Below the pieces are notes generated by a model that saw only the letters and a program-made list of their open reading frames with translations, did no database searches and was not told where the DNA came from. This document shows positions 5,110 through 16,406 of a DNA stretch of 20,810 nucleotides, one piece after another; positions within the stretch are counted from its first letter, which is position 1; each line of letters starts with the position of its first letter. The position numbers and the translations under genes were made by a program. Origin of the DNA: a virus; IMG/VR virus record IMGVR_UViG_3300011116_000435, positions 1 to 20,810 of that record, one strand, 5' to 3'.

Positions 5110-5139
5110 TTGACAAGTTAGATTAGCCTCACCTATCCT
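5110..5139 (+). promoter_or_regulatory. Rightward early promoter (candidate)
   Basis: A perfect -35 hexamer TTGACA (5110-5115) is followed after 18 nt by TATCCT (5134-5139), matching TATAAT at four of six positions including the key TA and final T. The expected RNA start is near 5146, giving a leader of about 38 nt before the ATG at 5184. It is the only consensus-like promoter seen upstream of the plus-strand gene block and would use the host housekeeping sigma factor. Confidence 0.55.
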
Positions 5140-5316: not shown

Positions 5317-5520
5317 ATGACACGCAAAGACTACGAACTCATCGCAAAAGTTCTACGAGAGAATCAAGATTTTGACGGCGTAGTATCGCCACACGCTCAA
5401 ATTGCGGTGGCTCTCGCTACCGAATTACAAAAGGATAACCCTCGTTTTTCCCCTGCTAGATTTCTCGAAGCGTGCGAGGTTAGCCCCTTCGAGATAGCGT
5501 TCGAGGAAATCTTCGCCTAG
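5317..5520 (+). CDS. Hypothetical early protein, 67 aa
   Basis: A helical, acidic protein starting MTRKDYELIAKVLRE and including a PHAQIAVALATELQKDNPRF segment. This layout is common among small actinophage proteins of unknown function, from general familiarity rather than a search. There are no membrane segments; one cysteine lies in LEACEVSP. AGAGGAG lies inside the end of the preceding gene at a suitable distance. A structured 81-nt gap follows before the next gene. Confidence 0.8.
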   Translation: MTRKDYELIAKVLRENQDFDGVVSPHAQIAVALATELQKDNPRFSPARFLEACEVSPFEIAFEEIFA

Positions 5521-5521
5521 C

Positions 5522-5582
5522 GTCTGCCTATCGCTCACCCTCACGGGTGGGCGGTGGGGAGGTTCTAGCCGAACGAGCAGAC
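5522..5582 (+). other. Structured intergenic segment between early genes
   Basis: GTCTGC (5522-5527) pairs with GCAGAC (5577-5582), enclosing a hairpin CACCC/GGGTG (5536-5549, loop TCAC) and a G-rich stretch. The segment lies directly after one stop codon and directly before the CGAAAGGATAAG start module of the next gene. It could be an RNA processing or stability element; there is no terminal T-run, so a terminator is unlikely. Confidence 0.35.
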
Positions 5583-5584
5583 CC

Positions 5585-5596
5585 CGAAAGGATAAG
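5585..5596 (+). repeat. Start module CGAAAGGATAAG, copy 1
   Basis: This 12-mer recurs exactly at 6202-6213 and 6897-6908 on the plus strand, each time 3-5 nt before a start codon, and once on the minus strand at 9741-9752. AAAGGA inside it is a Shine-Dalgarno core, but identity extends beyond what a ribosome needs. Here it precedes the ATG at 5602 by 5 nt. Confidence 0.6.
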
Positions 5597-5601
5597 CAAC
5601 A

Positions 5602-5817
5602 ATGGACAGCAACGAACTACTAAAGGAGGCGTTAGAGGTTGCCGCTTCTAACTTTGACTTTGACGGCGACTACGAAAAGGCGGAAGCAACCCGAAAACTA
5701 GTCAATGAGTTCGCCTCTGGCGTTAGGTATGCCCTCGATTACCTCTCAGACCTTTACGAAGGAATCGAAGAAACAACCCTGTGGGCGGAGTTTATGAACG
5801 AAAAGGAGAACTCATAA
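5602..5817 (+). CDS. Hypothetical early protein, 71 aa
   Basis: Function unknown. The product is acidic and predicted mostly helical, with repeated Glu/Asp/Ala (MDSNELLKEALEVAASNFDF and onward) and no Cys, His clusters or membrane segment. It starts 5 nt after the CGAAAGGATAAG module. The final A of its TAA stop is the first base of the next ATG (TAATG), a coupling that recurs along this operon. Acidic small early phage proteins sometimes inhibit host DNA-binding proteins; nothing here proves that. Confidence 0.78.
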   Translation: MDSNELLKEALEVAASNFDFDGDYEKAEATRKLVNEFASGVRYALDYLSDLYEGIEETTLWAEFMNEKENS

Positions 5818-5966: not shown

Positions 5967-6130
5967 TGAAGGAGGTTATTTTCAACGCCGTGCGAAACCC
6001 TCAAAACGGCTCAATAGTCTGTTCTGGTATGTGTGATCAGGGCTATCTAGAAACGAAGGTGTATTACGGCTATACCATAAAAGAGGCGCGGAGATTATTC
6101 AGAGAATATTTGAGAGCCATCAACGCCTGA
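5966..6130 (+). CDS. Hypothetical early protein, 54 aa
   Basis: The short protein begins MKEVIFNAVRNPQNGSIVCSG and ends in an amphipathic helix (EARRLFREYLRAINA). It has two cysteines (C19, C23) and no membrane segment. The pattern of two strands, YYGYTIKEA and a helix is like small proteins found widely in actinophages and annotated only as hypothetical. A longer reading of the frame from 5840 exists, but the strong GAAGGAGG just upstream and the TAATG overlap fix the start at 5966. An 86-nt gap holding two hairpins follows. Confidence 0.75.
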   Translation: MKEVIFNAVRNPQNGSIVCSGMCDQGYLETKVYYGYTIKEARRLFREYLRAINA

Positions 6131-6141
6131 TGCTTGCCTCT

Positions 6142-6191
6142 CTCTCAGAGTTAGTCTAACCTCTGAGAGTGGGGGAAGGTATTAGACCTTC
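6142..6191 (+). other. Two adjacent hairpins in an intergenic gap
   Basis: CTCTCAGAG (6142-6150) and CTCTGAGAG (6161-6169) form a perfect 9-bp stem with a 10-nt loop; GAAGGT (6175-6180) and ACCTTC (6186-6191) form a perfect 6-bp stem with loop ATTAG. They sit between a stop codon and the second CGAAAGGATAAG module. No T-run follows, so partial termination, RNA processing or 3'-end protection of the upstream message are the plausible roles. Confidence 0.45.
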
Positions 6192-6201
6192 ACAACTACA
6201 A

Positions 6202-6213
6202 CGAAAGGATAAG
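6202..6213 (+). repeat. Start module CGAAAGGATAAG, copy 2
   Basis: This is an exact repeat of the 12-mer at 5585-5596. It lies 3 nt before the GTG at 6217 and is the reason for choosing that start over the in-frame upstream alternative at 6169. Confidence 0.6.
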
Positions 6214-6216
6214 AAA

Positions 6217-6789
6217 GTGGAAACAATACTAGCCTCTAATGAGTGGCAGATGACGCTTGACGGTGAACTCTACGGAGAAACTAAGCCCGTAGTGCTTGAG
6301 GTTGAGGCGCAACTAGTCAAGAGAGAGGGCAACTCTTACCCGTATTTTTCAATTACGGGCGAAATCAGAAAAACAGACAGACGGCACCGCGATCCTGTGA
6401 TTATGTGCGGGGCGATACACGATGAGATTTTGCGTTACTTTCCTGATCTCGCGCCTCTTGTAACTGTTCATCTCTCCGCACCTGACGGAGTGCCTATGTA
6501 TGCAGAGGAAAACGCTCGCTATTGGGCAGGGCTTACCAAATACGAACCGCACACGAACAACGGCGGAATTGAACTAGAGAAAGACGAAAACGGGGTGCGC
6601 TGGTCACCTAAAACTCTCGCCTCACACCTTCAATGTGACGAGAAAACCGCCCGTGAGGTTCGCGGGGCTATGGTGCGCGGGTTAGCGTGGGATTACATCA
6701 CACGCCACGCGGGGCTAATAGACCTATGGAGTGAGCAAGCGGGCAAGGCTCGCGCTCTGCTCGTATCACGCGAGAGAGTGGGCGCGTAA
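6217..6789 (+). CDS. Hypothetical early protein, 190 aa, possible DNA-binding C-terminal half
   Basis: This is the largest product of the early operon. The N-terminal half looks like a beta-rich domain (TKPVVLEVEAQLVKREG, then PYFSITGEIRKTDRR and an ILRYFPDLAPLVTVHLSAPDG segment). The C-terminal half contains SPKTLASHLQCDEKTAREVR, which reads like a winged or helix-turn-helix segment with LASHLQCDEKTAREVRGAMV as turn and recognition helix. A regulator or an accessory replication protein is therefore possible, but no family is recognised. The start is GTG 6217, 3 nt after the repeated start module. The TAATG stop/start overlap links it to the next gene. Confidence 0.8.
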   Translation: METILASNEWQMTLDGELYGETKPVVLEVEAQLVKREGNSYPYFSITGEIRKTDRRHRDPVIMCGAIHDEILRYFPDLAPLVTVHLSAPDGVPMYAEENARYWAGLTKYEPHTNNGGIELEKDENGVRWSPKTLASHLQCDEKTAREVRGAMVRGLAWDYITRHAGLIDLWSEQAGKARALLVSRERVGA

Positions 6790-6911
6790 TGTTTGAGGTT
6801 TCTACGAATTGGATCAACGGATTAGGGCAGGTCATCACCTACGCCCTGATAATCGGCGCGGTGTTGTGGCTCTTGAGCAAAATCAAAATCAACGAACGAA
6901 AGGATAAGTAA
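6789..6911 (+). CDS. Single-pass membrane miniprotein, 40 aa
   Basis: The 40-residue protein has one strong hydrophobic helix (about residues 12-29, GQVITYALIIGAVLWLLS) followed by a basic tail (KIKINERKDK), giving a predicted N-out, C-in topology. Its ATG overlaps the preceding stop (TAATG). Its last codons and stop overlap the third copy of the CGAAAGGATAAG module, so the module is read both as coding sequence and as the ribosome site of the next gene. Small early membrane proteins can act in superinfection exclusion or as holin partners; neither is shown. Confidence 0.65.
   Translation: MFEVSTNWINGLGQVITYALIIGAVLWLLSKIKINERKDK
6897..6908 (+). repeat. Start module CGAAAGGATAAG, copy 3
   Basis: This is the third exact plus-strand copy, 5 nt before the ATG at 6914. 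Copies 1 and 3 stay alike past the 12-mer: both continue N-AACAATGG, differing at one base. Here the module also encodes the last residues of the membrane miniprotein. Confidence 0.6.
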
Positions 6912-6913
6912 CA

Positions 6914-7327
6914 ATGGGCGCAGACTTACTGCTCAATTATGTGGAGATAGCCGAGCCGAGAGAGAAGGCGCAGGCGCGTTTAGATAAATTACAGATAACA
7001 AAGGAACACCTAGAAGCCTTTGAGAACTGCGGTGAATACCAATTTTCAGATGAGGAGTTTAGCGAGCAGGTTCAAAAGGATATGAGGGCAAGGCTTCAAC
7101 GGGCTTTAGATGTGGTCTATGACAACGATGAGAAACAGACAACCCGTGATGTAACGCGCCTTATCATAGACGGAAACCGAACCTTTCTATTCACAGGCGG
7201 TATGAGTTGGGGAGATGATCCAACTAATTCTTATACAGATTTTTGGATTTTCTTTGAATTCTTAGGCTATCCCTCACACGAAAGCCCTGATAGTGAGGCG
7301 GTTCGCAAGTGGAAAGTGGGCGAGTAA
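6914..7327 (+). CDS. Conserved-type phage protein of unknown function, 137 aa
   Basis: An acidic protein with an N-terminal helical segment (EPREKAQARLDKLQITKEHLE) and a C-terminal part containing TFLFTGGMSWGDDPTNSYTD, followed by FWIFFEFLGY. The Gly-Met-Ser-Trp-Gly-Asp-Asp signature is one I associate with hypothetical proteins in several actinophages. That is recollection, not a search result. No catalytic motif can be assigned. ATG 6914 lies 2 nt after the preceding stop and 5 nt after the start module. Its TAA overlaps the ATG of the first cysteine-rich miniprotein of the array. Confidence 0.8.
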   Translation: MGADLLLNYVEIAEPREKAQARLDKLQITKEHLEAFENCGEYQFSDEEFSEQVQKDMRARLQRALDVVYDNDEKQTTRDVTRLIIDGNRTFLFTGGMSWGDDPTNSYTDFWIFFEFLGYPSHESPDSEAVRKWKVGE

Positions 7328-7467
7328 TGAACGACTGCCTTTGCGGATTATGTTCTTGTGGAGGAGAGCAAGATTACGGACACCTCTGCGGATACTGCGA
7401 TAGCGCACACCCCGACTATCACAAGCACGACTGCGATGAGTGTAACTACGGAGAGGAGTTAGACTAA
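7327..7467 (+). CDS. Cysteine-rich miniprotein 1, 46 aa (8 Cys)
   Basis: Eight cysteines and four histidines in 46 residues: C4, C6, C9, C11, then C21-x2-C24 and C36-x2-C39, with H19, H28, H32 and H34 between. This could hold two zinc ions or more. There is no hydrophobic core outside the metal sites. Its ATG overlaps the preceding stop (TAATG) and its own stop overlaps the next ATG in the same way. It opens a run of eleven coupled small genes. Role unknown; protein or RNA binding is the usual job of such knuckles. Confidence 0.72.
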   Translation: MNDCLCGLCSCGGEQDYGHLCGYCDSAHPDYHKHDCDECNYGEELD

Positions 7468-7643
7468 TGTCTAACTACAACAGGAACAATGAGTGCGTGG
7501 GGTGCGGTGAGCATATATCTACCTATCACGGGCAGGGGTGCGTTTATGACCCCGATTTTGAGGATAGGTGGAGTGCTTGCGGTGCTTGCGGTGAATACAA
7601 CAATGGAGAACACAACTGTTCAGAGGAGGTTGTCAATGTCTGA
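7467..7643 (+). CDS. Cysteine-rich miniprotein 2, 58 aa (6 Cys)
   Basis: Cysteines at C10-x2-C13, C25, C38-x2-C41 and C51, with histidines at 16, 21 and 49. The pattern ECVGCGEH followed by CGACGEY looks like paired knuckles of a zinc ribbon. The start overlaps the previous stop as TAATG and follows GGAGAGGAG inside the previous gene. Another frame is open over the same bases (7489-7764) but only its end from 7636 is a plausible gene. Its 3' end overlaps the next gene by 8 nt. Confidence 0.7.
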   Translation: MSNYNRNNECVGCGEHISTYHGQGCVYDPDFEDRWSACGACGEYNNGEHNCSEEVVNV

Positions 7644-7764
7644 CAAGTGCGAGTGCCGATTAGATAACGATTACCTAACCTTATGTGATGAGCATAAGTT
7701 AGAACTAGAGAACCTAAAGAATAATCCGCCCTTATGGGCTATTAGAGCAAGGAGAGGCAAGTGA
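7636..7764 (+). CDS. Cysteine-containing miniprotein 3, 42 aa
   Basis: C5-x-C7 and C17-x2-H20 are the candidate metal ligands (DKCECRLDNDYLTLCDEHK). The motif CxC followed by a short loop and LC-DEH is common in small actinophage proteins. The second half is a charged helix with a basic end (AIRARRGK). ATG 7636 lies 6 nt after AGAGGAGG. An upstream in-frame extension to 7489 would overlap miniprotein 2 almost fully and is disfavoured. It overlaps the next gene by 4 nt (GTGA). Confidence 0.7.
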   Translation: MSDKCECRLDNDYLTLCDEHKLELENLKNNPPLWAIRARRGK

Positions 7765-7892
7765 AAGCGTTACAAGAACTAGATGAGGCTATGACTAGCC
7801 TTTGGTATCAGGCAGAAATTAGCGATGAGGCTAAGTTATATTGGAACGACCTAGTGGCAAAACTAAAAGAGGAGGAGAACGCTAATGCCTAA
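7761..7892 (+). CDS. Small helical protein, 43 aa
   Basis: Without cysteines, this member of the run is an acidic helical peptide (MKALQELDEAMTSLWYQAE and onward) that looks like one or two amphipathic helices able to form a coiled coil or helical hairpin. The start is GTG 7761, overlapping the preceding stop as GTGA and preceded by AAGGAG. Its end overlaps the next gene by 8 nt. Being short, it is supported mainly by coupling, ribosome site and a protein-like sequence. Confidence 0.62.
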   Translation: MKALQELDEAMTSLWYQAEISDEAKLYWNDLVAKLKEEENANA

Positions 7893-8013
7893 GTGCGAAG
7901 TATGTTGGGCAGATAGTAAGGAGACTTATATCTACCGCTACAAGGGAACTACCTATTGCGAGCAAGACTTAGAGAGAGCGCAACGGGAGGGGTGGCACAA
8001 TGACAACGCCTAA
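7885..8013 (+). CDS. Cysteine-containing miniprotein 4, 42 aa
   Basis: The protein starts MPKCEVCWADSKETYIYRYKG with C4-x2-C7, then C25 and H38, consistent with a small treble-clef-like knuckle. A YIYRYKGTTYC segment forms a likely hairpin. The start ATG follows GAGGAGGAG and overlaps the previous gene by 8 nt. The N-terminus MPKC-x2-C is shared with the product starting at 8157 and resembles the one starting at 8000, which suggests these three arose by duplication. Confidence 0.68.
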   Translation: MPKCEVCWADSKETYIYRYKGTTYCEQDLERAQREGWHNDNA

Positions 8014-8164
8014 ATGCCAATGGTGCGAAGGTGAAACGCGGATAGAGCCGCTTGACTTCTACCTTGAGGAGTTAGGGTGCGAAGTCACCTGCGAAGGGTG
8101 CGATACCCTGATCTGCTTAGAATGTGGGCAAGATGTGCCAAGTGAGGAGGAAGCCAATGCCTAA
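8000..8164 (+). CDS. Cysteine-rich miniprotein 5, 54 aa (7 Cys)
   Basis: Cysteines at C6-x2-C9, C27, C31-x2-C34 and C39-x2-C42 are enough for two zinc sites, set in a very acidic chain (many Glu). The N-terminal TPKCQWCEGE resembles the PKC-x2-C starts of its two neighbours. ATG 8000 follows GGGAGG and overlaps the previous gene by 14 nt; it overlaps the next by 8 nt. The C-terminal CLECGQDVP is typical of a zinc-ribbon knuckle. Confidence 0.68.
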   Translation: MTTPKCQWCEGETRIEPLDFYLEELGCEVTCEGCDTLICLECGQDVPSEEEANA

Positions 8165-8315
8165 GTGTGGTGTATGTGGGTGGTCTTTCTCAGATAGAAC
8201 GCTGATGAAACACGCTGAAACCCCGTGTGGGGAGGAGAGCGAGAAGGCAGGTAGATACCTGCCTGAAATAGATGATCTAATCAAGGAGATAGAGGAGGAG
8301 CAGGGCGATGAATAG
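8157..8315 (+). CDS. CCHC zinc-finger miniprotein, 52 aa
   Basis: C4-x2-C7-x11-H19-x4-C24 is a clear CCHC zinc-finger spacing with aromatic and Leu residues between (WSFSDRTLMKHAETPC), close to a classical finger in layout. A Glu-rich acidic helix follows (LIKEIEEEQGDE). The frame is open up to 8124, but ATG 8157 has GAGGAGG upstream and overlaps the previous stop by 8 nt. A DNA-, RNA- or protein-binding role is reasonable; the acidic tail could mimic nucleic acid. Confidence 0.72.
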   Translation: MPKCGVCGWSFSDRTLMKHAETPCGEESEKAGRYLPEIDDLIKEIEEEQGDE

Positions 8316-8409
8316 CGACTGCGTAAGAGGACATCACAACCAATGCGAGGACAGTATCAAGGACACTTACCTTTGTTCCTGCCCTTGCCACCTACAAGGA
8401 GGAAAGTAA
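8308..8409 (+). CDS. Cys/His microprotein, 33 aa (C-x3-HH-x2-C / C-x-C-x-CH)
   Basis: Only 33 residues, yet C5, H9, H10, C13, C23, C25, C27 and H28 are potential metal ligands. The pattern C-x3-HH-x2-C, then C-x-C-x-C-H is one I have seen in very short actinophage reading frames (from general familiarity). ATG 8308 follows GAGGAGGAG and overlaps the previous gene by 8 nt. Its TAA is immediately followed by the next ATG. Confidence 0.62.
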   Translation: MNSDCVRGHHNQCEDSIKDTYLCSCPCHLQGGK

Positions 8410-8550
8410 ATGAAGACCATCACAATTCAGTATAAGTTCCCCGAAGATTACGACCACGATGAAATCGTGACAACAATAAATGGGGCGATTACAGATATGG
8501 ATAGCGACCTCGCTACCGAATTGTCCTACAAAATCATAGGGAGGAAGTAA
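8410..8550 (+). CDS. Hypothetical small protein, 46 aa
   Basis: This has the look of a small alpha/beta fold: MKTITIQYKFPEDYDHDEIV as a strand, turn and helix start, then an acidic helix and a final strand (ELSYKIIGRK). No cysteines. It begins directly after the preceding TAA, with AAGGAGG at the right distance, and its own TAA overlaps the next ATG (TAATG). Function unknown. Confidence 0.68.
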   Translation: MKTITIQYKFPEDYDHDEIVTTINGAITDMDSDLATELSYKIIGRK

Positions 8551-8729
8551 TGAACAAGGAATACTATCAAGCGAAGGCAGACCTATGCCGTGACCTTGCT
8601 ATCAAGCAAATGGTCAATGGGGAAGCGAAGGAGGCAGGGGCTAACCTGATCCGTATGGTCAATGCCCTGAACGAAATCAACCTAATCAACTACAAGGAGG
8701 AGAAGGACAATGAAGTGCGATACAAGTAA
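8550..8729 (+). CDS. Hypothetical small helical protein, 59 aa
   Basis: A helical product (MNKEYYQAKADLCRDLAIKQ and onward) with heptad-like spacing of Leu, Ile and Met, so a helical hairpin or coiled coil is likely. One cysteine only. The start overlaps the previous stop as TAATG and follows GGGAGG. The last 20 nt overlap the start of the next gene. It resembles small phage proteins of unknown role that may bind a host partner, which remains inference. Confidence 0.68.
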   Translation: MNKEYYQAKADLCRDLAIKQMVNGEAKEAGANLIRMVNALNEINLINYKEEKDNEVRYK

Positions 8730-8811
8730 AGAGTGGTGCGATAGATGCTCTGTTGAGAGTATCTGTTGCGAGGAGAAGTTATGTGATTTCTGCGTGGAGG
8801 TATCAGTATGA
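8710..8811 (+). CDS. Cysteine-rich microprotein, 33 aa (7 Cys)
   Basis: Seven cysteines in 33 residues: C3, C10-x2-C13, C19, C20 and C25-x2-C28. Two C-x2-C pairs make a single zinc site possible, with C3, C19 and C20 as extra ligands or disulfide partners. ATG 8710 follows AAGGAGG and overlaps the previous gene by 20 nt; its stop overlaps the next ATG as ATGA. It is the last of the cysteine-dense members of the run. Confidence 0.62.
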   Translation: MKCDTSKEWCDRCSVESICCEEKLCDFCVEVSV

Positions 8812-9038
8812 AACTCATCAACTTTTATGAGGTAATGGATCGCAAAGGAGATATTGCGTGGGGAGGGGCGAGCGCAAGCGAGGCGGTGGAGTGGTTTAGA
8901 CGAGGCTTAGATAACTCTATCTTTGTATCGGTTTGGAATGAGGAAGATATTGAGGAACCTGTTCTCGTCACCGACAAGATAGAAGTGACCGCGCTGGTGC
9001 TGGCTACTATTACAAGCGAAAGGGAGAGAGGGCGATGA
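8808..9038 (+). CDS. Hypothetical protein, 76 aa
   Basis: A small acidic protein with an apparent alpha/beta fold: INFYEVMDRKGDIAWGG as a strand pair, ASEAVEWFRRGLD as a helix, then IFVSVWNEED and a C-terminal LVTDKIEVTALVLATI strand and helix. Such strand-helix-strand proteins of 70-80 residues are frequent in phage early operons without known function. It has GGAGG upstream and overlaps both neighbours by 4 nt (ATGA). No cysteines or membrane segment. Confidence 0.78.
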   Translation: MKLINFYEVMDRKGDIAWGGASASEAVEWFRRGLDNSIFVSVWNEEDIEEPVLVTDKIEVTALVLATITSERERGR

Positions 9039-9121: not shown

Positions 9122-9446
9122 ACGTAGAATGAAAGAGAAAGATAAGGCATTAGAAAAGCGTATGAGGAACGCTGAGAGGCGAGCCGTGTGGCTACGCAAC
9201 TATCAGCGAGCAAGAGGGCGAGCGCTCACACGCCTTGCTCAGCAATACCCCGACCAATTCAAGGAAATCTTGGAAGAAGAAAGGCTATCTGATGAGGCTC
9301 AAGGAAAGGCGTGGTTGGATATTAGTGGCACTACCCGTGATGACGCTGGTATTTACCTACCTCCACATAGACAAGACAGTTCATATAGATCTGGGCAAAC
9401 CAACGCAGATGAGCAGAACCAAAGCAACGTGGGAGCAGAAGAATGA
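9105..9446 (+). CDS. Basic helical protein, 113 aa
   Basis: The first half is strongly basic and helical (MNLEAKRRMKEKDKALEKRM, then RAVWLRNYQRARGRALTRLAQ), consistent with RNA or DNA binding or a coiled coil. The second half is polar and probably disordered, with SGTTRDDAGIYLPPHRQDSS. I recall similar basic proteins in actinophages without known function. ATG 9105 follows GGGAGG. The last 155 nt overlap the transglycosylase gene in another frame, so both may be constrained by dual coding. If the overlap is false, this gene would more likely be the shorter one. Confidence 0.72.
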   Translation: MNLEAKRRMKEKDKALEKRMRNAERRAVWLRNYQRARGRALTRLAQQYPDQFKEILEEERLSDEAQGKAWLDISGTTRDDAGIYLPPHRQDSSYRSGQTNADEQNQSNVGAEE

Positions 9447-9717
9447 GAACAGAGAATTAGCAAAACAATACGCGTGGGTTGCGTTTGGTTGGAGAGGGAG
9501 AGAATGGCTCTGCCTCCACGATCTTTGGACCCGTGAAAGCAGGTTTGACCACTACGCACAAAACCCAAAGTCAAGCGCTTTCGGAATTGCTCAACTCCTT
9601 GGAGAGAGAAGTAGAAAGCCTTCACTCCAAATACTGCGAGGCTTACGTTACATTGACGAGCGTTATGGATCACCTTGTAAGGCTTACAGGTTTGCTCTTA
9701 GAAAAGGACACTACTAA
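9292..9717 (+). CDS. Membrane-anchored SLT-type lytic transglycosylase, 141 aa
   Basis: Cleaves peptidoglycan glycan strands. Residues 9-23 form a hydrophobic N-terminal segment after MRLKERRG, a signal anchor that would place the rest outside the membrane. The catalytic domain shows WTRESRFD with Glu82 as catalytic acid, SSAFGIAQ (residues 94-101) as the SLT core, and a C-terminal ALRKGHY. This matches short actinophage SLT proteins in layout. ATG 9292 follows AAAGG by 7 nt; a start at M40 would drop the anchor. It ends the early operon, apart from the M15 endolysin and holin at 16808-17529, so it may serve in early wall remodelling or lysis. Confidence 0.82.
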   Translation: MRLKERRGWILVALPVMTLVFTYLHIDKTVHIDLGKPTQMSRTKATWEQKNENRELAKQYAWVAFGWRGREWLCLHDLWTRESRFDHYAQNPKSSAFGIAQLLGERSRKPSLQILRGLRYIDERYGSPCKAYRFALRKGHY

Positions 9718-12692: not shown

Positions 12693-12841
12693 TCTGCTTT
12701 CTTCTTTCGCTTAGGTTTTACATCAAGTGCTTCTTCCCTAACCTCTTCTTGTTCTTCAACTGCAGTCGGTTCTTCTGGAACAACTACCTCTGGTGTATTC
12801 CAACCTTCACTACTTGTTATCTGTCCTTGTGGTACTGGCAT
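12689..12841 (-). CDS. Small charged protein, 50 aa
   Basis: A short protein with an acidic middle (VVPEEPTAVEEQEEVREEA) and a basic end (KPKRKKKAE), probably disordered. No metal ligands. ATG 12841 follows AAAGGA by 6 nt and lies inside the last 32 nt of the resolvase-like gene; its stop overlaps the next ATG. The charge pattern resembles flexible tails that bind single-stranded-DNA-binding proteins or replisome parts, but this is only an analogy. Confidence 0.6.
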   Translation of the reverse strand: MPVPQGQITSSEGWNTPEVVVPEEPTAVEEQEEVREEALDVKPKRKKKAE

Positions 12842-13193
12842 TGCTTGTCCTTTCTACTAACCATTGATCTAAGTCTTGGATTACCCAAGCCTTCTCTACT
12901 CCGTGTTGTCTGCGTTTGACTATAACGAAGGCAGGAGGAGTCGCAACCATCCCCCGTGCCTTCGCATAGTTCTTTGCTTCTACCTGTGCTTCGTCCCAGA
13001 AGGCAGGAAGATTCAGTGACTTGCGGTTCTTACACTCTAGAATATAGGTCTGACCTGCGATTATGGTAACGATGTCACCTTCGTCATTAGAGCCAGCCTT
13101 AGCAAGCCTTTCAGCAAAGTGACCTAGTTTGCGTAGATACTTCATCACATCGGTTTCAAACTTGGAACCTTTGACTTTGTTGTAACTACTCAA
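12810..13193 (-). CDS. Holliday-junction-resolvase-like nuclease, 127 aa
   Basis: Has the PD-(D/E)XK pattern of archaeal-type Holliday junction resolvases and VRR-type nucleases: E13 in GSKFETDVMKYLRKLG, D40 in NDEGDIVTI, then E53-C-K55 in YILECKNRK. It lacks a fused domain, so DNA-junction or flap cleavage in recombination-linked replication is the likely role. The start is TTG 13193, overlapping the helicase stop as TTGA with AGGTGA upstream; no ATG fits. It follows the helicase and precedes the small charged gene, inside the replication cluster. A general nuclease is the alternative. Confidence 0.8.
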   Translation of the reverse strand: MSSYNKVKGSKFETDVMKYLRKLGHFAERLAKAGSNDEGDIVTIIAGQTYILECKNRKSLNLPAFWDEAQVEAKNYAKARGMVATPPAFVIVKRRQHGVEKAWVIQDLDQWLVERTSNASTTRTDNK

Positions 13194-14673: not shown

Positions 14674-15635
14674 TATTTACCTCCAGTATGTTTGACAGAA
14701 AGGCGCAGACTTTCTTTGCCTTCGATTGTAGGAACGAAGCCCAGAAGTTCTTGAACTAATTCCTTATTCACTTGTTTGGCACCAGCCACAGCAGACCAAC
14801 GAACCTCTACTCCTGTGTCTGTTACACCGACTACTCCAGATAGTTCTTCTTTCAAAAACTCTTTCTGTGCAGTCAATTCTTTTATTTGGTTATCTAATTG
14901 CAGATAAGTCAGCGCTTTGGTTGAGGCTTGCTTATCTTGGATCAACGGTAATTCAGTTTTTGTACGTTCTTTTTTTAGACCAACGCATCCCATCTCACCA
15001 GATGCGTCGTAGTATTTACAATAGAACTTACAGTAACTCTCATCCTTTTCTGGTTCTGGTGGAGTCTGTGACTCTTTGACACCAGCCAACCAAGATAGGG
15101 CTTCAAGCGCAATGGAAGAATCGTACTTCTCTGAGTGGACCTTTACATCGCGCTCGTCACCGTCTCGTGGAATAGCCACAAGATGCACATTGTGGACCTT
15201 CCCCAATCCACTTTGTTCTATGAGGTATCCGTAAGTATGAACTTGCCAGCGTTGTTGCTGGCTTGGAAAATAGGCAAGGTTCTTTACCTTGACAGTCTTC
15301 CAATCAACTACATCTCCAGAACCTGGGATGTAGAGATCTACGTGTGCTTTCATTCCGTTATGTTCAACGGTCTGCTCTATCAAAACTTCTTTGTTATCTT
15401 CTAGCGCTTTCTCAATAGCACCGTGAATGGCTGTACCCATAATGGCAGCCAACTTCATCTCATTCTCATTGGTCTCTGGCTGGTTATTCAACTTGTACCA
15501 GACCTTACGACGGCAACCACCTAACTCTGATGGTCCTATCTGAACCTGAGTAGAACGTGGTCGGTTATTCTCGCGCTCGTGTAAAGCCTTGATTAGTAGT
15601 TCTTTTGGATCTATCGCCACCGTGCTTTTTCCCAT
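14673..15635 (-). CDS. Cas4/RecB-like Fe-S exonuclease, 320 aa
   Basis: A PD-(D/E)XK nuclease of the Cas4/RecB type. Core residues: GTAIHGAIEKAL (residues 67-78, H71 and E74), HVDLYIPG with D100, DVVDWKTVK with D111 and K113, and RWQVHTYGYL with Gln131 and Tyr135 as motif 4. C41 (GGCRRK) plus C202, C206 and C217 (YCKFYCKYYD, then GEMGC) would hold an Fe-S cluster. It probably trims DNA ends with 5'-3' polarity during recombination or replication. The C-terminal 100 residues form a coiled helix (LQLDNQIKELTAQKEFL). ATG 15635 lies inside the last 25 nt of the previous gene with no clear ribosome site; GTG near 15620 is an alternative. Confidence 0.87.
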   Translation of the reverse strand: MGKSTVAIDPKELLIKALHERENNRPRSTQVQIGPSELGGCRRKVWYKLNNQPETNENEMKLAAIMGTAIHGAIEKALEDNKEVLIEQTVEHNGMKAHVDLYIPGSGDVVDWKTVKVKNLAYFPSQQQRWQVHTYGYLIEQSGLGKVHNVHLVAIPRDGDERDVKVHSEKYDSSIALEALSWLAGVKESQTPPEPEKDESYCKFYCKYYDASGEMGCVGLKKERTKTELPLIQDKQASTKALTYLQLDNQIKELTAQKEFLKEELSGVVGVTDTGVEVRWSAVAGAKQVNKELVQELLGFVPTIEGKESLRLSVKHTGGK

Positions 15636-15799
15636 CGTGTAATTGTAATGTTAAAGAATAGCAGGTCTAACTGACAAATTCTAGCCATTATCACAAACGG
15701 TGTTGATTCATATTCGTGGTAGTAGTTGATACCTAAGCCCCAATTTTGCAGGCTATTAGCATTAAAATATACAGTCCAATGCGACCAGTCTTGCCTCAT
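15611..15799 (-). CDS. Small hydrophobic/aromatic protein, 62 aa
   Basis: A 62-residue protein with many aromatic residues (SHWTVYFNANSLQNWGLGIN, then YYHEYESTPFVIMARICQ) and a strand-rich C-terminal part (LDLLFFNITITRWEK). This beta-type pattern without charge clusters suggests a small folded beta domain, not a membrane segment. I recall like-sized sequences beside nucleases in actinophages but have no function for them. ATG 15799 overlaps the preceding stop as ATGA. Its end overlaps the nuclease start by 25 nt. Confidence 0.7.
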   Translation of the reverse strand: MRQDWSHWTVYFNANSLQNWGLGINYYHEYESTPFVIMARICQLDLLFFNITITRWEKARWR

Positions 15800-16362
15800 C
15801 CCAACTCCTTCATCTGAGTAACCAACTGTATTGGAGGACAAGTATTGATGTCCAGCATTGAAGCAATCTGAACGGCTTTCTCGGCGTGTTGCTCTACATT
15901 ACCAATAGTGAGACGACCCATACGATCATAAAGATAACCGAGAGCATAAGCACCGCCACTGCCGATTCCATAAATACCGCCATCACTCTTGATGAACGAC
16001 AGGTCCGTCGCGATATGGAATACATTCCCATCAAACGCGACAATGTAGTCGAATCCTGATTCCTTATCCTTCGACGCTTCATACGGGTCATATCCATTCT
16101 CTTTGAATGCCGTGAGTATTGACGGCATTACTTTCTTACCCATCCACTGGACGGGATCTGCTCCTTTGTAGGTGGGCGGAGTCCAGTTATAGGCGAGGAT
16201 ATCTCCTGGCCTAGCATCTCCGACAAGACCTAGTAGATACTTGCTCACGTGAATAATCTTGGGAGTGGAACTACTAATAGTTCGCAGGTTATCTTCAGTT
16301 ATCTGACTATCTGCTGCTAGAACTGCTCTGTCTTCTAGTTCTATCGCTACGAGTGTGGTCAC
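15796..16362 (-). CDS. Proteasome/HslV-fold Ntn hydrolase, 188 aa
   Basis: A self-compartmentalising-peptidase fold. The start GTG at 16362 is followed directly by Thr (TTLVAIELED), so removing the initiator Met exposes Thr1 as nucleophile without a propeptide. Asp17 (LAADSQIT), a Lys at position 34 (TPKII) and GIGSGGAYALG match the Thr1, Asp17, Lys33 and GSGG residues of HslV and proteasome beta subunits. The length is close to HslV (about 175 aa). Upstream the frame stays open to 16629, but that extension crosses hairpins and an opposite gene and is rejected. No partner ATPase gene is visible. It heads the leftward replication operon; leaderless translation is possible. Confidence 0.85.
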   Translation of the reverse strand: MTTLVAIELEDRAVLAADSQITEDNLRTISSSTPKIIHVSKYLLGLVGDARPGDILAYNWTPPTYKGADPVQWMGKKVMPSILTAFKENGYDPYEASKDKESGFDYIVAFDGNVFHIATDLSFIKSDGGIYGIGSGGAYALGYLYDRMGRLTIGNVEQHAEKAVQIASMLDINTCPPIQLVTQMKELG

Positions 16363-16388
16363 TGGATAATGGTAATGGAAGATACGGC

Positions 16389-16406
16389 GTGTCGCGCCAG
16401 CGACAC
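16389..16406. other. 7-bp hairpin in the divergent intergenic region
   Basis: GTGTCGC (16389-16395), loop GCCA, GCGACAC (16400-16406). It is perfectly paired on either strand and lies 27 nt upstream of the peptidase GTG on the minus strand, and 13 nt upstream of the possible rightward -10 at 16420-16425. It could be an operator dyad or an RNA hairpin. Confidence 0.4.

Follow-up and report, generated by a model that had tools for sequence, protein, structure and literature searches.

Does a run of very small, overlapping phage genes pass from relative to relative as one module, or is it put together gene by gene? The question is raised by positions 7327-8811 of IMG/VR virus record IMGVR_UViG_3300011116_000435, a 20.8-kb record analysed over its whole 20,810 nucleotides (nt) and called the window below. 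An earlier reading had described eleven coupled miniproteins here, often cysteine-dense, which looked like a module maintained as a unit. We arrived at a different interpretation, to which we assign a probability of about 0.72: the locus would be a hypervariable mini-gene array in which single genes are exchanged at coupled joints and which encodes early effectors. Single mini-genes, drawn from a pool of more than 100 families, are acquired, lost and exchanged at a rate far above that of flank divergence, between fixed anchors named TM (starting at 6789), ZF (8157), KEY (8550) and END (8808).

The eleven open reading frames (ORFs) of 33-59 amino acids (aa) that the sequence-only reading had placed at 7327-8811 were all found, with the same coordinates, lengths and overlaps. 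Joints 1 to 10 overlap by 1, 8, 4, 8, 14, 8, 8, 0 (abutting), 1 and 20 nt, and the last mini-gene (8710) overlaps the gene at 8808 by 4 nt. Strong Shine-Dalgarno (SD) sequences, with 5-7 positions of the AAGGAGG core, precede 10 of the 11 starts; the SD at 7327 is weak. The cysteine clusters were likewise as described: C-x2-C or C-x-C occurs in 8 of the 11 proteins, the 46-aa product of 7327 has 8 Cys, and Cys makes up 8.5% of array residues vs. 0.8% in six of the window's large proteins. From the overlaps, the mini-genes are very probably translationally coupled.

Chance tiling by spurious ORFs might be suspected in G+A-rich sequence of this kind, as the strand carrying the array is purine-rich and SD-like strings are frequent in it. 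The same gene finder was run on 200 dinucleotide shuffles and on the reverse strand: against 10 real coupled, SD-led joints, the shuffles yielded a mean of 0.1 and a maximum of 2, and the reverse strand none. A tblastn and dN/dS (nonsynonymous to synonymous substitution rate) screen against approximately 100 related loci returned relatives for 9 of the 11 mini-genes. A tenth (7327) was found only in the more distant phage L165, at 57% identity, and gene 8410 had no relative among the related loci searched. Eight genes had suitable pairs and gave a pooled dN/dS of 0.06-0.17, below the value of 1 against which the sequence-only reading had proposed to check; 7327, 8308 and 8410 had too few relatives for the calculation. 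The frames of the relatives are open rather than broken by stops, with internal stops only in 8157 (1 of 59 matches) and 8550 (8 of 81 matches), the latter probably reflecting the window's own extended KEY tail. Because of the low dN/dS in relatives, at least eight of the eleven mini-genes are real genes. With almost no stops and with invariant Cys columns as well, we find a chance origin scarcely credible.

All genes of the array lie on the + strand. Mini-gene 1 (7327..7467, 46 aa) is followed by mini-gene 2 (7467..7643, family C026, 58 aa, dN/dS 0.17), whose six Cys are invariant in the alignment, and by mini-gene 3 (7636..7764, C019, 42 aa, three invariant Cys, dN/dS 0.12), which enters through an 8-nt overlap at 7636-7643. 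Mini-gene 4 (7761..7892, C014, 43 aa, dN/dS 0.08) starts with GTG and has no Cys. Mini-gene 5 (7885..8013, C040, 42 aa, dN/dS 0.07) begins MPKCEVC, and mini-gene 6 (8000..8164, C041, 54 aa, dN/dS 0.06), with seven Cys, overlaps it by 14 nt. The second anchor, ZF, is mini-gene 7 (8157..8315, 52 aa, 59 contigs, dN/dS 0.17). Mini-gene 8 (8308..8409, C079, 33 aa, five Cys) has two relatives at 97-100% aa identity, and mini-gene 9 (8410..8550, 46 aa, no Cys) a weak match to PHROG 25254 (E 0.006). KEY, the third anchor, is mini-gene 10 (8550..8729, 59 aa, 81 contigs, dN/dS 0.17); its last residues, EVRYK, are encoded inside mini-gene 11 (8710..8811, C118, 33 aa, seven Cys, 20-nt overlap, dN/dS 0.06), which has two relatives at 97-100% aa identity. 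The left anchor TM (6789..6911), a small hydrophobic protein found by tblastn in 58 contigs, is kept in most relatives and is separated from the array by a 137-aa gene of family C057 (6914..7327) seen only in the window, in L001-L004 and in distant phages. The right anchor END (8808..9038, 76 aa, 85 contigs) had no Pfam or PHROG match.

Scans of IMG/VR yielded 88 distinct contigs, the window included, and arrays were compared in the 66 that carry both TM and END in the analysed stretch. Between these two genes we counted 465 genes (median 54 aa) in 109 families, at 2-18 genes per array, and 39 of the 109 families were seen in one array only. KEY is present in 64 of 66 arrays and ZF in 41 of 66, a short tail-only gene replacing ZF in 13. 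Neighbours vary for nearly every mini-gene family. In the seven pairs whose downstream flanks are 98-100% identical, the median Jaccard index of the other mini-genes was 0.17, and 43% of these pairs had no mini-gene in common. The same was seen between LanE43-AprE7 and LanE43-AprF5 (E7 and F5 below), isolates from the freshwater actinobacterium Planktophila (PMC10202952): their flanks are 96-98% identical and their arrays of small coupled genes differ, some genes being common at 42-93% identity and others confined to one phage. Both carry a homologue of cassette C039, and their array is smaller than the window type. The F5 array lies at about 22.5-26.0 kb, and the mini-gene region of the two phages, whose public records are without annotation in the collection used, seems undescribed; we rejected its identification with the 8-kb island of E7/F5, which corresponds to a gap at 8.6-16.8 kb in their alignment.

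The proposal of a conserved zinc-miniprotein module kept as a unit draws on the overlaps, the purifying selection and the Cys columns that are invariant within families. Close phages nevertheless have few or no mini-genes in common, their neighbours differ, and many genes lack Cys altogether, so that we consider such a module highly improbable; between flanks that stay fixed, the content changes one gene at a time. Cysteine density, correct for the window, holds for only part of the pool, where 190 of 465 genes encode at least three Cys and 140 none.

Differential loss from a large ancestral array, with no horizontal exchange, would explain why 109 of 126 co-occurring family pairs occur in one order only. 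The pool, however, exceeds 100 families, far beyond any single array, and cassettes 95-100% identical in nucleotide sequence lie in contigs that have END genes of 68-84% identity (19 pairs, nine families). The latter observation implies recent transfer of single genes, not only loss. In one example, C046 of L085 and L117 is 99% identical from the ATG on and unrelated before it, and the match continues into KEY. Loss alone is in our judgement an improbable account.

If single genes are exchanged, where are the boundaries? For homologues with different left neighbours, identity is about 0.28 up to position -20, rises through the SD and reaches about 1.0 from the start codon. For homologues with different right neighbours, it is about 0.95 across the SD (-8), declines from -5 to -2 and amounts to 0.3-0.4 just after the ATG. 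These profiles indicate that, in an exchange, the upstream gene brings the SD and the downstream gene the start codon. Ends of shared blocks fell within -25 to +10 of a start in 56-57% of cases vs. 19% for random positions, and 479 of the 568 shared blocks with whole genes contained exactly one gene. Judged by these alignments, the unit of exchange is a single gene, from its start codon to its joint with the next gene.

Array joints overlap by 8 nt in 46% of cases, by 4 nt in 24%, by 14 nt in 9% and by 1 nt in 8%, as compared to 43% for 4 nt and 9% for 8 nt among the larger genes that these contigs carry on the opposite strand. More than 90% of array joints have overlaps of 0-23 nt, and gaps above 10 nt are few. 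Sequence logos of the joints read GAGGAG(G)n5-7ATG, the GAGGAG(G) often being translated as Glu-Glu near the C-terminus of the upstream protein. At the 8-nt joint, ATGnnTAA, the upstream stop falls in codons 2-3 of the downstream gene, which is why M-P-K and M-S-K starts and upstream ends of the EE-x-N-A type recur. The sequence-only reading had noted three PKC-x2-C starts in a row (7885, 8000 and 8157); gene 8000 starts MTTPKC and not MPKC. The joint at least partly imposes the PK of this motif, as the upstream TAA is read within ATG CCT AAG (M-P-K), and mini-gene 5 owes its MPKCEVC start in part to the joint AATGCCTAA at 7884-7892. We rejected the idea that the three genes are paralogues: they belong to separate families, and PK stems from the joint.

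Overlap class agreed at 0.56 by downstream gene, 0.35 by upstream gene and 0.31 after shuffling, tracking the downstream gene more than the upstream one. The end of KEY varies with its partner (KEEK followed by DNA, VND, GNE or ASE; DNEVRYK in the window). A strict joint pattern was found in only three contigs of IMG/VR, and the joint is thus a loose standard without a fixed sequence. The upstream gene supplies the SD and the downstream gene the ATG and often the upstream stop; with this division, any two genes can be joined without a scar and still be coupled, presumably by termination-reinitiation through the overlaps. A literature search on such gene joints found nothing useful.

The most serious competitor is ordinary mosaicism, in which recombination is random and illegitimate, selection keeps intact neighbours and the joints are mere initiation sites. 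Actinophage mosaicism is commonly explained in this way (PMC3203893). SD sequences and start codons are needed in any case, compact coupled genes are selected, and joints of unrelated genes are only 0.47 identical over 26 nt. It accounts less well for joints that are almost scarless, for an 8-nt class about five times as frequent as between other genes of these phages, and for the long exact runs common to unrelated joints: in-register runs of at least 8 nt occurred in 10.7% of random pairs of unrelated joints vs. 0.2% inside genes, and the best unrelated partner of a joint had a median of 12.5 nt in common with it, vs. 6 in the control. We rate random recombination with selection as a real contender at somewhat below even odds. 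In the alternative that we prefer, crossovers would be guided by short homology at the joints, using the phage's exonuclease and resolvase, and selection would retain in-frame, coupled products. Such joint-guided recombination plus selection is favoured over selection on random recombination, though the two are given about equal weight. More speculative, and in our view doubtful, is the further proposal that the SD-ATG-stop joint is a selected exchange device, that is, a standard for modular assembly that needs no dedicated site-specific recombinase and has covarying hairpin-promoter spacers as a second connector; phages of abundant freshwater Actinomycetota would use it to put together new early polycistrons by joint-guided recombination.

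Several points count against an exchange array of early effectors. Boundaries at start codons could arise from selection alone. Shuffling is not free, as gene order is partly kept and both orders were seen in only 17 of the 126 co-occurring family pairs; metagenome contigs may include chimeras; the pairs behind the dN/dS values of 0.06-0.17 are mutually non-independent; and AlphaFold2 models of the products of 8157 and 8000 are poor (predicted local distance difference test, pLDDT, 67 and 62). The gene finder is SD-weighted, although the overlap classes were computed without an overlap bonus and are independent of it.

What do the exchanged genes encode? No mini-protein could be placed with confidence in a family by searches of Pfam and PHROG. 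Within the array's families, Cys columns are for the most part invariant (6 of 6 in C026, 4 of 4 in C020 and C022), and about 40% of the mini-proteins would probably bind zinc. The ZF head has the pattern C-x2-C-x11-H-x4-C, in which C4, C7 and H19 are invariant and the fourth Cys is present in 35 of 43 sequences. It weakly matches C2H2 finger profiles (best E 3e-4, to Aart, with no single stretch passing), and the Pfam match is below cut-off. The head is followed by the PEIDDLI tail (codons at 8262..8282 in the window), and this acidic tail, PEIDDLIKxxEE, recurs in relatives in five head contexts: with ZF, by itself, with C039, with C102 and fused to TM in L136. By these comparisons, the tail marks a further site of exchange that lies within a gene, and it may be a docking peptide. 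In L136, the TM gene (approximately 71 aa) is fused in frame to the ZF tail, apparently via deletion of the intervening array.

Rapid turnover, purifying selection, small size and the phage's own replication and regulatory genes fit effectors of host takeover or counter-defence, and by analogy the array is most likely a shuffled early-gene arsenal against the host. T4 ORFans such as 55.2 offer a parallel for an effector role (PMC4396842). The products would be small early effectors against host factors or defences, different phages profiting from different sets.

A second kind of connector may operate in the same operon. An approximately 82-nt hairpin, named R1, fills spacers of about 80 nt, mostly in the left half of the array's gene block. 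Its short-loop form at 5519..5602 (+) reaches from the stop of gene 5317 to the start of gene 5602 and scores 59.3 bits with the covariance model; its long-loop form at 6129..6219 (+) ends at the GTG start (6217) of the next gene and scores 71.8 bits. A MAFFT alignment supported 16 pairs, 10 of them with compensatory changes, and the covariance model located 70 places among 76 sources; 69 of these lie on the gene strand. In the fitted alignment, which leans to the model, 97% of cells pair vs. 74% after shuffling and 13 of 16 pairs change on both sides; slid controls all drop to 50-63% pairing. The 60 places checked all end at an ORF start, and 49 start 2 nt into the stop codon of the gene before. 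Genes downstream of R1 come from many unrelated families, and a few copies lie inside the array, e.g. before C010. R1 is absent from Rfam 15 and had no match in E7 or F5 at the covariance-model threshold used; an exact-pattern scan located it in 66 IMG/VR contigs, many from this phage group. TTGCCT-like and TAnnnT boxes 16-18 nt apart, a loose pattern, occur in 48 of 66 R1 sequences vs. 7% after interior shuffling. R1 is a well-supported candidate for a structured RNA that would serve as a second portable connector within the array's operon, and it may combine promoter, hairpin and ribosome-binding site in the manner of the promoter-early stem-loops (PeSLs) of T4-type phages.

The array has the marks of a shuffled ORFan region, with small genes that vary between close relatives and conserved flanks, and the most fitting description is a cassette array of fast turnover whose joint is translational, a variant within such known regions. 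In the hyperplastic regions of T4-type phages with PeSLs (Arbiol 2010, Comeau 2014, via PMC4503421), small ORFans are similarly re-dealt between conserved flanks, and their cassettes have repeated boundary elements, which R1 hairpins with their promoter-like motif resemble. Unlike PeSL cassettes, the array has its boundaries at translational joints within coding regions, and neither a promoter nor a terminator separates its genes: overlapping joints leave no room for an early promoter and stem-loop, and no terminator-like signal above chance was detected at them. Start-associated sequences (SAS) and their extended forms (ESAS) in cluster K actinophages are, like the joints, short repeated sequences resembling ribosome-binding sites before unrelated non-structural genes, and some have a preceding inverted repeat (PMC3203893). 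SAS is, however, a fixed 13-bp sequence found mostly before genes with gaps above 50 bp, and ESAS has little support for RNA pairing (PMC3203893), whereas array joints are overlaps and R1 covaries strongly. The 13-bp SAS, GGGATAGGAGCCC, before start codons was absent from the joint logos. The ORFanage of cyanophage S-PM2 is likewise a dispensable block of small ORFans with synteny rarely conserved in environmental relatives, but its loss is ascribed to packaging and no standard joint is described in the part of PMC4503421 consulted, whereas the array exchanges single genes between anchors. The paper on E7/F5 variability concerns the same broad phage group and reports high gene flux between the two isolates; it treats the 8-kb island and a tail-fibre island, and no mention of a mini-gene array or of joints was found in the sections read (PMC10202952). 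Integron cassettes were rejected as a model: the overlapping genes leave no room for attC, and no integrase was present among ten window-phage proteins scanned.

The array sits within a rightward gene block (about 5.2-9.7 kb) flanked on both sides by leftward genes. A candidate operon promoter, TTGACA-18-TATCCT (5110..5139, +, 10 of 12 consensus matches), lies upstream of this block; such matches occur at chance level in the region, and its position is its sole support. Downstream of the array, a transglycosylase-like gene (9292..9717, +, PHROG 12661, E 3e-16) is also found beside the E7 and F5 array. As read from the sequence, DNA cytosine methyltransferase-like genes follow the array in some relatives, L003 (2283-3005) and L165 (4775-6132), but not in the window. 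Profile scans identified RecE/Cas4-like exonuclease and Holliday-junction resolvase genes on the - strand (14676-15635 and 12813-13193), which are candidates for the exchange machinery, and an HslV-like peptidase match (PHROG 1040) lies at 15799-16395 on the same strand. The terL, DnaB-like helicase, WhiB and sigma factor genes and the gene order point to kinship with E7 and F5, with terL 45-46% identical to theirs. The window phage therefore appears related to cultured phages of freshwater Actinomycetota, and a host of its own among the Nanopelagicales would be suggested by this relatedness. A nucleotide search of the array region against 50,697 phage records and a protein search with gene 8808 gave no match, and no prophage relative was present among the genome contigs searched, providing no host link from the prophage side.

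Variable ORFan regions are common in phages, and the exchanged unit is rarely visible in them. Here, a single kind of joint serves more than 100 mini-gene families, and the boundary can be placed to within a few bases, which makes the question of homology at the ribosome-binding site versus selection alone directly testable. As the array also occurs in smaller form in the cultured phages E7 and F5 of Planktophila, which belongs to an abundant freshwater order, its pool of small proteins lends itself to expression and to screening on a real host. Concrete starting points are the invariant Cys patterns and the occurrence of the PEIDDLI tail on five heads. The mini-proteins probably represent unexplored tools for use against freshwater bacteria of very high abundance.

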